Positions 17,459 through 56,450 of a DNA stretch of 64,000 nt are shown piece by piece. Positions within the stretch are counted from its first letter, which is position 1; every line of letters starts with the position of its first letter. The stretch is taken from NCBI RefSeq assembly GCF_000376385.1, contig NZ_AQWN01000003.1, positions 1 to 64,000 of the forward strand, given 5' to 3'. The DNA comes from Desulfurispora thermophila DSM 16022 (GTDB taxonomy: Bacteria; Bacillota; Desulfotomaculia; Desulfotomaculales; Desulfurisporaceae). Position numbers and translations under genes: made by a program. The notes under the pieces were generated by a model. The model searched no databases, had not been told where the DNA came from, and worked only from the letters and a program-made list of their open reading frames with translations.

Positions 17459-17588
17459 CCTGGCACATTTTTGTCCTTCTGCAGAAGTCGCTATAAATCG
17501 AAAGCCCCGCAAAACCTTGCGGGGCCTGGCTTTTTATAGCGTCCCAGGAGGGATTCAACCCCTCGACCTACGGATTAGAAGTCCGTTG
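17459..17588. repeat. Degenerate duplicate of the tRNA-Arg 3' half and its terminator (copy A)
   Basis: 17539-17588 matches the 3' half of tRNA-Arg at 19823-19899 (GCGTCCCAGGAGGGATTC, then the anticodon arm through GATTAGAAGTCCGTTG) with damage in the T-arm (TTC-AACCCCTCG). The match continues outside the tRNA: the terminator hairpin CCCCGCAA/TTGCGGGG and the CTTCTGCAGAA stretch are shared with 19750-19822. Such a displaced tRNA 3' end is what remains at the far side of an element integrated into a tRNA gene. Confidence 0.75.
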
Positions 17589-17805
17589 AAGAATCCACTC
17601 CAGAACCGTCAAACCCTTGATACTACTGACTTTTAGCTTTCTAAACCACCTTTATGGCATACGGACTACGTTTAACAATGTGGCAATCTTTTACTCAAAC
17701 TCTGAATACATAAAGAAGGAGTGCTTGGTTCCCCATAGAAATTATTACAACAAAATTATATTTTTTCTTGAAAAGAAATATAATGTAAGAAAGGAAGAAT
17801 TCAAG

Positions 17806-19822: not shown

Positions 19823-19899
<77 letters not shown>

Positions 19900-23449: not shown

Positions 23450-23524
23450 ACTGGTGGTAGATATTACCGCTGGATATATTAACAGACCAGCAATTATAAT
23501 AATTAGTAAATTATATAGCCGAAT

Positions 23525-23660
23525 CATTGTTCCAAGAACAATGTACGGGGGAACTAATTTTTGGGGTGAAGCGGCGATTTAGACGGGAGGTGAATTTACT
23601 AAATCGCGGTAGGGTGATCCTCAACCCGAACCCGTCAACTAACCCCGGAGGCTGCAGAGG
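23525..23660 (+). promoter_or_regulatory. Cyclic-di-AMP riboswitch (ydaO/yuaA leader)
   Basis: The conserved blocks of this class are visible in order: CGGGGGAACTAA, TTTGGGGTGAAGC, a hairpin (GCGATTTAG/CTAAATCGC), GGTAGGGTGATCCT, CAACCCGAACCCGTCAACTA and ACCCCGGAGGC. It ends 10 bases before the start of a cell-wall hydrolase gene, the commonest target. These riboswitches turn genes off at high c-di-AMP. No separate terminator hairpin is seen; since GGAGGCTGCAGAGGAGGAG includes the ribosome site, control may be on translation. Confidence 0.9.
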
Positions 23661-23670
23661 AGGAGAATAA

Positions 23671-34013: not shown

Positions 34014-34029
34014 TACATAAAACAAACGC

Positions 34030-34216
34030 ATTGTTCACCAGCAGGTGCTGTCCAGGCTGGACAGAGAATAGGGAACCGGGTGCAAGTCCCGGACGGACCC
34101 GCCACTGTAACCGGGGAGCAAAGCGCCATTTATGCCACTGGTTGTTCTAACCGGGAAGGCGGCGCGGCGCGTTGATCCGGAAGTCAGGAGACCTGCCTGC
34201 CGGTGCAATCCGCTGG
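34030..34216 (+). promoter_or_regulatory. Cobalamin (B12) riboswitch
   Basis: The class hallmarks are clear: GGTGCTGTCCAGGCTGGACAGAGAATAGGGAACCGGGTGCAAGTCCCGG (split here: GGTGC..., AATAGGGAA, CCGGGTGCAAGTCCCGG), then ACGGACCCGCCACTGTAACC (B12-box core GCCACTG), GGGAAGGCGGC, and GTCAGGAGACCTGCCTGCCGG. It is followed by an intrinsic terminator and then cobT, so B12 should end transcription early. Confidence 0.95.
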
Positions 34217-46030: not shown

Positions 46031-46236
46031 GGGTGTGTTTTCTTCGCTCGCCCGAATTCCGTACTGGGCGGCACCAACGGCTCGGTTGCGGGCGGGCCGG
46101 GCCGCCCCTGATTCGACATCCTGTCTCAGCAGGGGCTGGCGCGGACGTCCTGTCCGCGCCTCCCGGCCCGCTGCCGCACCCTCGCCGGGTGCCGCAACCA
46201 GTACTCCAGACGGGCTCGCCCAGGAAAGGCACACCC
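46031..46236 (+). repeat. 206-bp foldback repeat, copy 1 (between pyrD and pyrF)
   Basis: Begins GGGTGTG and ends CACACCC. The arms pair through most of their length: GTACTGG/CCAGTAC (46061-46067/46198-46204), GCGGCACC/GGTGCCGC (46068-46075/46188-46195), CGGC/GCCG, TGCGG/CCGCA, GCGGGCCGGG/CCCGGCCCGC (46092-46101/46162-46171). The tip has two hairpins, CCCCTG/CAGGGG and GGCGCGGAC/GTCCGCGCC (46138-46146/46152-46160). Copy 2 lies on the far side of pyrF in the same orientation; the two differ at many positions, yet the pairing is kept (see finding). It has no coding potential of its own. Confidence 0.85.
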
Positions 46237-46278
46237 ACAAAACTAACACTGCTGTTTGTTGTAGGGGATGTTAATAAA

Positions 46279-47028
46279 TTGATACAGGCCAAGCATAAGC
46301 TGATCATTGCCCTTGATGTACCCGACCGGCAGAGCGTCCGGCAATATGTGACCATGCTGGCCCCTTACGCGGGCATGTTTAAAGTGGGCATGGAGCTGTA
46401 CTACAGCCAGGGCCCGGGAATCATTGAGGAAATCAAAAGCCTGGGGGGCAAAATATTTCTGGACTTAAAGCTGCACGACATCCCGCGCACGGTGGGCCGG
46501 GCGGTGTCCGTGCTGGCCGCTCTGGGCGTGGACATGCTCAATGTGCATGCCTCCGGTGGGCTGGCCATGCTGCAGGCGGCCGTCGAGGCGGCGCGGAGCG
46601 CGCAGCAGCCGCCGCTTATGATTGCGGTCACCGCTTTGACCAGCCTGGATGAAAGGGTCTGGCGGCAGGAATTGGGCTTTGGCTGCAGCATTGAGGAAAA
46701 AGTGCGGGACTGGGCCCTGCTGGCCAAACAGGCCGGCCTGCAGGGCGTGGTGGCTTCGGCGCGGGAGATTGAAATTATCAAAACACACTGCGGCCGGGAA
46801 TTTCAGGTGGTTACGCCGGGCATTCGTCCGTCCGGCAGTGAGCCGGGCGATCAGAAACGCGTCCTGACGCCGGGGGCGGCCATTGCGGCCGGAGCCGACT
46901 ACCTGGTGGTGGGCCGCCCCATCCTGCAGGCGCCCGACCCGGTGGCGGCGGCCAGGCAGATTCTGGAGGAGATTGAGCCAGTCTCTACTGACTTGAATGT
47001 TGGCAGTTGTTTAGTACTAGATACGTAG
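46279..47028 (+). CDS. pyrF: Orotidine 5'-phosphate decarboxylase
   Basis: 249 residues. Substrate motifs KLIIALDVPD, the DxKxxD core FLDLKLHDIPRTV, NVHASGGLAMLQAA, VTPGIRPSG and DYLVVGRPI. The frame is open upstream through the 206-bp repeat, but the family start fits TTG at 46279 (AGGGGA 9 bases before). It is the last step to UMP. Bracketed by direct 206-bp repeats. Confidence 0.94.
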   Translation: MIQAKHKLIIALDVPDRQSVRQYVTMLAPYAGMFKVGMELYYSQGPGIIEEIKSLGGKIFLDLKLHDIPRTVGRAVSVLAALGVDMLNVHASGGLAMLQAAVEAARSAQQPPLMIAVTALTSLDERVWRQELGFGCSIEEKVRDWALLAKQAGLQGVVASAREIEIIKTHCGREFQVVTPGIRPSGSEPGDQKRVLTPGAAIAAGADYLVVGRPILQAPDPVAAARQILEEIEPVSTDLNVGSCLVLDT

Positions 47029-47046
47029 TATTAATTTGTCAGCAGC

Positions 47047-47252
47047 GGGTGTGCATCCTTCGCTCGCTTGAATTCCGTACCGGGCAGCACCAATGGCTCG
47101 GTCGCGGGCGGGCCGGGCCGCCCCAGATTCGACCTCCTGTCTCAGCAGGGGCTGGCGCGGACGTCCTGTCCGCGCCACCCGGCCCGCTACCGCGCCCTCG
47201 CCGGGTGCTGCAGCCGGTACTCCGGACGGGCTTGCTCAGGAAAGGCACACCC
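47047..47252 (+). repeat. 206-bp foldback repeat, copy 2 (downstream of pyrF)
   Basis: Same length and ends as copy 1. Matching stems: GTACCGG/CCGGTAC (47077-47083/47214-47220), GCAGCACC/GGTGCTGC (47084-47091/47204-47211), CGCGG/CCGCG (47103-47107/47190-47194). The apical GGCGCGGAC/GTCCGCGCC hairpin is identical to that of copy 1. It starts 18 bp after the pyrF stop. Confidence 0.85.
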
Positions 47253-47341
47253 GCTAGCTTACGCTGTAGTGTTAGCAGCGTTTAACGCAGCAGATGTCCG
47301 GCGCGAGCGCTTTGCAAAGAGCCGTATGCTGAAACAAAAAT

Positions 47342-47364
47342 GGCCGGAAGGGTTACTTCCGGCC
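47342..47364 (-). terminator. Terminator of the SASP gene
   Basis: GGCCGGAAG and CTTCCGGCC around GGTTA; on the minus strand followed by ATTTTTGTTT. 47253-47341 has no other feature. Confidence 0.8.
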
Positions 47365-47374
47365 GCCGTGGCCT

Positions 47375-47554
47375 TTAAACCTGCAGCAGAGATTGCTCGG
47401 CCCGTTGAATGGCCAGCTTTACCAGGTTACCGCAGTCACGCGAGCTTACCGAACCGAAGTCACCTTCACGGGCCACGATATCGGCAACGCCCAGTTCCTT
47501 GGCCAGCTCAAACTTGAGCCTGTCCGACATCACCCGGTTGCGGCGTCTGCTCAT
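47375..47554 (-). CDS. Small acid-soluble spore protein, alpha/beta type
   Basis: 59 residues: MSRRRNRVMSDRLKFELAKE, then LGVADIVAREGDFG, and the second helix SSRDCGNLVKLAIQRAEQ. The LKFELAKELGV and GNLVKLAIQRAE blocks are the SASP signature for coating spore DNA; this is a divergent member with an Arg-rich start. AAAGGAGG lies 8 bases before the ATG and a terminator follows. It is transcribed against the pyr operon, between pyrF and pyrE, so the operon is interrupted here. Confidence 0.85.
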   Translation of the reverse strand: MSRRRNRVMSDRLKFELAKELGVADIVAREGDFGSVSSRDCGNLVKLAIQRAEQSLLQV

Positions 47555-47723
47555 AGGCCAGTCCTCCTTTGCCTTTTGGGGCCACGGCTGTAGTTATAGT
47601 ATGGCTGGTGGTACTAAAAAAATTGCACAAAAATTTTACGTGCTTGCCTGGTTATGATAATATGTGTATCATACAACATAGCAGCAATGCTTGTTTACAA
47701 TATGCACCAGGAGGCGAAGGTGG

Positions 47724-56367: not shown

Positions 56368-56450
56368 GCGTGCCATTCCTGAGTGAGCCCGTCCGGGGTG
56401 CCGGCTAAAGAATCCGGCGAGGGTGCGACAGCGGTCCGGGCGGCGCGGAG
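56368..56450 (-). repeat. Partial inverted copy of the 206-bp foldback element
   Basis: Read on the minus strand, this matches the right half of copies 1 and 2: CCGCGCC, CCCGG, CGCACCCTCGCCGG, CCGGACGGGCT, CTCAGGAA, GGCAC, with gaps and substitutions. The left arm and terminal CACACCC are missing. It fills most of the dapF-dapL gap. Confidence 0.65.

Follow-up and report, generated by a model that had tools for sequence, protein, structure and literature searches.

The TwoAYGGAY RNA family (RF01731), which belongs to clan CL00106 in Rfam, was defined by Weinberg et al. in 2010; it is entered in Rfam as a cis-regulatory type, and no gene-control role is given for it in the 2010 table (PMC2864571). 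Gardner and Eldai predicted that TwoAYGGAY binds CsrA and proposed it as a CsrA-binding sRNA (PMC4333381). The repeat of CsrB is CAGGA(U/A/C)G (PMC7652899). In the IS1202 family of insertion sequences, one group has unusually long target duplications of 16-28 bp, and the targets of that group are unknown (PMC10132070).

The locus examined here lies in a 64,000-nucleotide stretch of the Desulfurispora thermophila DSM 16022 genome (the window), in which a preliminary description had recognised two foldback sequences (46031-46236 and 47047-47252) located either side of pyrF. Their positions and equal length of 206 bp were confirmed, as were the GGGTGTG/CACACCC ends, which in copy 2 are more exactly GCGGGTGTG/CACACCCGC. 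We consider it probable that these foldbacks are non-autonomous MITE-like palindromes containing a TwoAYGGAY RNA, a predicted CsrA binder that may act as a dispersed decoy.

The foldback elements at pyrF

The features of the two copies, and of a third partial copy in the window, are listed below, the minus strand being the RNA (GGA) strand of copies 1 and 2.

46031..46236, minus strand: element copy 1, 34 bp downstream of pyrD
47045..47254, minus strand: element copy 2, including the GC/GC that lengthens the terminal inverted repeat of 47047-47252; 16 bp downstream of pyrF
46099..46163, minus strand: TwoAYGGAY core of copy 1 (RF01731, 51.9 bits, gathering 43, E 1.3e-5)
47115..47179, minus strand: TwoAYGGAY core of copy 2 (RF01731, 44.1 bits, gathering 43, E 8e-4)
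46138..46160, minus strand: apical hairpin 1 of copy 1, GGCGCGGAC-AGGAC-GTCCGCGCC, with predicted CsrA site CAGGACG
46105..46135, minus strand: apical hairpin 2 of copy 1, loop GAC-AGGAT-GTC, with predicted CsrA site CAGGATG
47154..47176, minus strand: apical hairpin 1 of copy 2, identical in sequence to that of copy 1
47121..47151, minus strand: apical hairpin 2 of copy 2, loop GAC-AGGAG-GTC, with GGA retained and the following base different
56370..56449, plus strand: partial third copy, 80% identity to element positions 123-202

The likely start of pyrF follows ~42 bp after copy 1. Copy 2 was placed by eye in the gap that separates pyrF from a short convergent frame (~47380-47560 in the window) with its own terminator-like hairpin at ~47341-47365, also located by eye. 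The frame resembles a small acid-soluble spore protein gene and is one of the short genes missed by the simple gene caller used for gene context. The two copies share 90.3% identity, with 20 differences, and have fold energies of -136 (copy 1) and -131 kcal/mol (copy 2), giving z values of -8.7 and -7.5 against dinucleotide shuffles, with none of 200 shuffles as stable as either copy.

With the Rfam covariance model, both cores scored above the RF01731 gathering threshold on the minus strand, i.e. antisense to pyr, and the cut-off was also passed by most of the 20 loci of this genome that were fetched first. The window copies align to model positions 46-112 only, and the siblings L009 and L010, together with a second sub-family, align to positions 1-168. 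GGA is present in both terminal loops of the window copies, and the CsrA site motif occurs in the loops in pairs, as CAGGACG with CAGGATG (copy 1; C-AGGAC-G and C-AGGAT-G) or with CAGGAGG (copy 2). The identity of the element RNA as TwoAYGGAY is well supported, and from its loop sequences the minus-strand RNA is predicted to bind CsrA at both loops. A small structured RNA had been among the suggestions made originally, and the RF01731 identity supports it; this RNA and the mobile palindrome discussed below are the same thing.

Elsewhere in the window, a cobalamin riboswitch (34026-34214, Rfam 139.6 bits) and a c-di-AMP riboswitch (23507-23668, Rfam 84.6 bits) were found. At 17540-17606 and 19826-19899 lie a tRNA gene (minus strand) and, ~2.2 kb from it, a degraded copy of a similar tRNA (30.5 bits); the pair could be the trace of an old integration event bounded by a tRNA and its att copy.

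Base pairing and loop sequence across copies

Three double changes between the window copies had been reported, and each of them (T46065:A46200 to C:G, G46070:C46193 to A:T and T46087:A46178 to C:G) was found to be exact and to affect bases paired in the minimum-energy fold. The remaining changes had been described as wobble-compatible, which is correct for three that are G-T on the plus strand but not for the same three on the minus strand, where they are A-C. One further change at a paired position retains pairing on the minus strand only, one converts a plus-strand wobble to a standard pair, three disrupt pairing on both strands, and six of the 20 differences fall at unpaired positions. Taken alone, the pair of window copies is weak evidence for covariation.

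Further copies were collected by plain DNA similarity, and a search of the 2.82 Mb genome gave 42 matches, 27 of them full length or nearly so. In an alignment of these 27 copies, 97.5% of cells in 75 stem pairs were standard pairs, and 27 stem pairs were altered on both sides, compared with 8.7 after shuffling and 3-6 when slid out of register; additional copies did not break the pairing as often as they kept it. As the pairing and the double changes exceed the controls, the element structure is either under selection, as first proposed and as supported by covariation well above both the shuffled and slid controls, or repaired as a palindrome. One hairpin had been noted as unchanged, and GGCGCGGAC/GTCCGCGCC is nearly invariant across all copies. 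One-sided changes comprise 52 G-U and 24 A-C cells on the GGA strand, a polarity that gives weak support to this strand, the cells being non-independent and the fold computed on the GGA strand.

The copies in this genome are ~8% from their consensus. Their outer arms (TACAGCGTAA.../...GCTGTAGTATTA) are weakly shared between copies, and the exact outer ends are therefore undefined in this genome; sharing is also weak in the flanks beyond the palindrome, and no conserved promoter was seen by eye upstream of the element. A second sub-family is represented in this genome by L078, L094 and G000:C5:203477-203635, all matching the full RF01731 model. In L078 the loop of hairpin 1 is the hexaloop ACGGAU, and the outer arms of the sub-family resemble GGGCGAGCGTTGTGCATGCTCGCC, a short hairpin also present near several first-type copies (L012, L019).

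AGGA is retained in 52 of the 54 loops of the 27 copies, the exceptions being two copies with ACGA in loop 2, and in all 80 loops of 40 copies from a relative, G010, most of which came from a search with the RF01731 model and hence with a bias towards intact loops; the following base is variable in both sets. The probability that eight random columns are equally conserved is 0.011 (this genome) and 0.002 (G010) for columns of the element, and 0.079 and 0.033 for columns of the core. As the entire hairpin 1 is nearly invariant throughout in this genome, its loop is not singled out here.

An alignment of 18 diverged sequences from 17 genomes was also examined, and 91.5% of cells were paired (67% shuffled, 32-40% slid), with 145 double changes (40 shuffled, 16-35 slid). 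The hairpin stems have been rewritten across the 17 genomes, double changes occurring in eight of the nine pairs of hairpin 1. GGA persists in the loops of the 18 sequences, with the exception of GTGA in loop 1 (G015 and G045) and AGGG in loop 2 (G090), and pentaloops (AGGAY) and hexaloops (AYGGAY) interchange between lineages. Rewritten stems around a nearly constant GGA are a better fit to an RNA loop read by CsrA than to a DNA site.

Of 399 genomes sampled across the phylum, 51 carry RF01731. A TwoAYGGAY match in Peptococcaceae bacterium BRH_c4a (L041:15551-15709) lies ~5 kb from pyrF. Genome G039 (L097-L116) has ~36 copies, many of them near-identical and within larger repeats flanked by GCGACCCTCAAG and CTTTAGCGCTTTAATG; its contigs often terminate near copies, which looks like recent amplification disrupting the assembly.

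Mobility, gene context and host range

The richest and best-preserved relative is G010, in which the element is a 265-bp palindrome with exact ends CAGACTGTAGACAAA...TTTGTCGACACTCTG. Direct repeats of 11-29 bp flank 32 of the 36 G010 copies having both ends, and at 31 of these copies the repeat comes within 3 bp of each element end. Hairpin folding was found for 26 of the repeats, and a T or A run borders 26 (for example AAAAGTGGGTAAATCACCCACTTTT in L179, AAAGCCACCCACCGGTGGCTTT in L197 and AGAGATTGGCAAAACGCCAATCTCA in L155). Matched flanks scored 17.1 and mismatched flanks 6.3, and 26 of 29 exceeded the 99% quantile. That the flanking copies are direct, not inverted, follows from the asymmetry of the loops. 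The G010 flanking repeat is itself an intrinsic terminator, so that the element has inserted at terminators with the full hairpin duplicated.

Partial and weaker evidence of such target duplication was obtained for G007, where six of ten copies exceed the 95% null quantile, for G059 and, outside the order, for G363. None was seen in G030, G352, G329 or G384, and none that was convincing in G181. In this genome none rose above chance, one of 27 copies being over the 95% null quantile. As the copies here are ~8% from consensus and lack a target duplication, they are probably old, and we infer that they moved in the same way as those in G010. Two unlike hairpins flank most copies in G079, where the hairpin to the left of one copy is that to the right of another (L224 and L228), which suggests recombination between copies or draft misassembly.

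Several shortened G010 copies (54-115 bp) without the core retain both ends and the flanking hairpin duplication. Three of 114-115 bp (L178, L187 and L197) have the RNA core cleanly absent at the same junction, a 7-bp direct repeat (CTGTCGG), and each has its own flanking repeat, which implies that the short form is mobile or that the deletion has occurred repeatedly. No autonomous partner with the same ends was recognised among the G010 end matches listed, up to 100 places per list. A Y1/RAYT transposase was considered as the mover and rejected, its presence being uncorrelated with the element: Y1_Tnp is absent from the element-bearing genomes G046 and G057, many Y1-rich genomes are without elements, and this genome has a single partial Y1 domain match in a 111-aa frame. 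The mobility of the element is well supported, and the original suggestion of a non-autonomous mobile palindrome is upheld.

Of the gaps in this genome that contain the element, 24 of 28 lie between codirectional genes, two between convergent and two between divergent genes, and nearly all are 3' of at least one gene; none of 39 copies in G010 and G007 is in a divergent gap. At codirectional sites in this genome the GGA strand is sense in 16 cases and antisense in eight (p = 0.15), and with G010 and G007 added the ratio is 32 to 18, which is not significant. Because orientation to genes is mixed, many copies, including both in the window, would not be co-transcribed as CsrA sites.

This genome has one csrA gene (G000:C2:180373-180525), adjoining fliW. 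In a sample of 60 genomes, csrA was present in 16 of 16 element-bearing and 21 of 44 element-free genomes (p = 1.5e-4), and across 113 genomes of the order RF01731 was found in 22 of 62 with csrA and five of 51 without (Fisher p = 0.0017), statistics that ignore kinship, with contrasts present within families f5, f8 and f17; the class-wide set consists of the same 113 genomes. The five csrA-negative carriers are draft assemblies, also without fliW, and one of them has six copies.

Interpretation and comparison with known systems

Each foldback would be one copy of a non-autonomous mobile palindrome, and the minus strand of its inner half would form the TwoAYGGAY RNA, a long stem with two hairpins, the loops of which present AGGA/ANGGA, the recognition element of CsrA. 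In well-preserved relatives the element inserts at intrinsic terminators and so comes to sit between two direct copies of the entire hairpin, and insertion at such sites would cause it to accumulate at the 3' ends of genes, where harm would be least. Transcription across the element in the GGA direction would yield a double CsrA site, and dozens of copies could jointly form a dispersed CsrA decoy (sponge), lowering free CsrA; we infer that the RNA is made, bound by CsrA and titrates it. CsrA binding might serve the element, e.g. by regulating its transposase, or the host, or neither, and most likely the element is a selfish palindrome that bears a predicted CsrA-binding RNA or takes advantage of one. 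More tentatively, the element may be a transposon with a double CsrA-binding RNA as cargo, moved by an enzyme that reads terminator hairpins as structures and duplicates them, with copy number tuning free CsrA. If this is true, the length of the target duplication would be set by the length of the hairpin, and tuning by copy number would explain the preference for csrA-bearing hosts.

It is rather unlikely that the element is a purely selfish DNA palindrome (MITE), its hairpins and GGA loops serving transposase recognition on duplex or single-stranded DNA and its likeness to CsrA sites being incidental. The well-supported mobility and terminator targeting, the mixed orientation to transcription and the csrA-negative draft genomes carrying the element are all consistent with it; however, the shift of loop length between lineages around a constant GGA is expected of a CsrA-bound RNA loop, the element is associated with csrA, and the core-less G010 copies with ends and duplication suggest that the core is unneeded in cis, although these copies might instead have lost it later by deletion between short direct repeats. 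The compensatory changes could also be a product of mutation, template switching in a quasipalindrome copying arm onto arm and generating paired changes in one step. The element is a near-perfect palindrome, with outer arms wholly different between genomes yet self-complementary, but such copying would erase conserved internal mismatches, whereas mismatched internal loops persist, and would not preserve an unpaired GGA, whereas few unpaired positions are conserved as strongly as the loops. One-sided intermediates (U-A, U-G and C-G at one pair) are common, which fits stepwise change, and template switching is considered improbable.

We give similarly little credence to dispersed, domesticated sRNA genes that arose by past duplication, lost mobility and titrate CsrA from their own promoters. 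Strong structural constraint, GGA conservation and the earlier CsrA-binding sRNA proposal (PMC4333381) favour such genes, but they are hard to reconcile with the high copy number, the occurrence of copies in operon gaps in either orientation, the exact terminal repeats of the G010 copies and their target duplications, the lack of a conserved upstream promoter by eye and the weakly shared outside flanks. It had also been suggested that the foldbacks serve in processing of the pyr mRNA, and a cis-acting role in processing or termination within the pyr operon would account for the location of both copies in pyr intergenic gaps and for their very stable fold as plus-strand RNA. This is highly improbable, as pyr is encoded on the strand opposite to the conserved RNA, at least 25 further copies that are full length or nearly so are found at other genes across the genome, and the relatives looked at carry no element between pyrD and pyrF.

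The TwoAYGGAY RNA family, its predicted CsrA ligand and MITEs were already known. TwoAYGGAY as the tip of a mobile palindrome that duplicates complete terminator hairpins was not found in the open-licence literature, where nothing relevant was found either on terminator-targeting elements with hairpin-length duplications or on MITEs with CsrA sites. If the mobile palindrome with its predicted CsrA-binding RNA is accepted, the so far unexplained RF01731 gains a natural history as the terminal part of a mobile palindrome that can reach dozens of copies per genome, and the annotation of its matches should be changed to reflect this. The element is also a candidate CsrA-titrating RNA for Bacillota, in which the CsrA antagonist described is FliW. 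Gapless duplication of a complete terminator hairpin suggests that the integration enzyme recognises the structure of the DNA, which provides a testable target rule.

Like bacterial MITEs, the element is short and non-coding, with terminal inverted repeats, many copies and, in relatives, target duplication. Unlike them, it is palindromic over almost its full length, its duplicated target is a complete terminator hairpin of variable length, and no parent insertion sequence was found among the G010 end matches listed. Long target duplications are shared with one group of the IS1202 family, which may offer a lead. REP/REPIN sequences with RAYT are likewise dispersed, intergenic palindromes, often in 3' regions, whereas the element carries a pair of direct hairpins on a single long stem and its presence does not follow Y1 transposases. 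The sRNAs CsrB, CsrC, RsmY and RsmZ resemble it in the hairpin loop motif CAGGA(U/A/C)G and in paired sites (PMC7652899, PMC4383904), but each is one RNA with many sites, whereas the element has two predicted sites per unit in dozens of dispersed copies and is without a known promoter or GacA/UvrY control. With TwoAYGGAY itself (RF01731) the element shares a pair of GGA-loop hairpins borne by one stem, and several siblings match the full model; the difference is that the RNA here forms the tip of a mobile palindrome with many copies.
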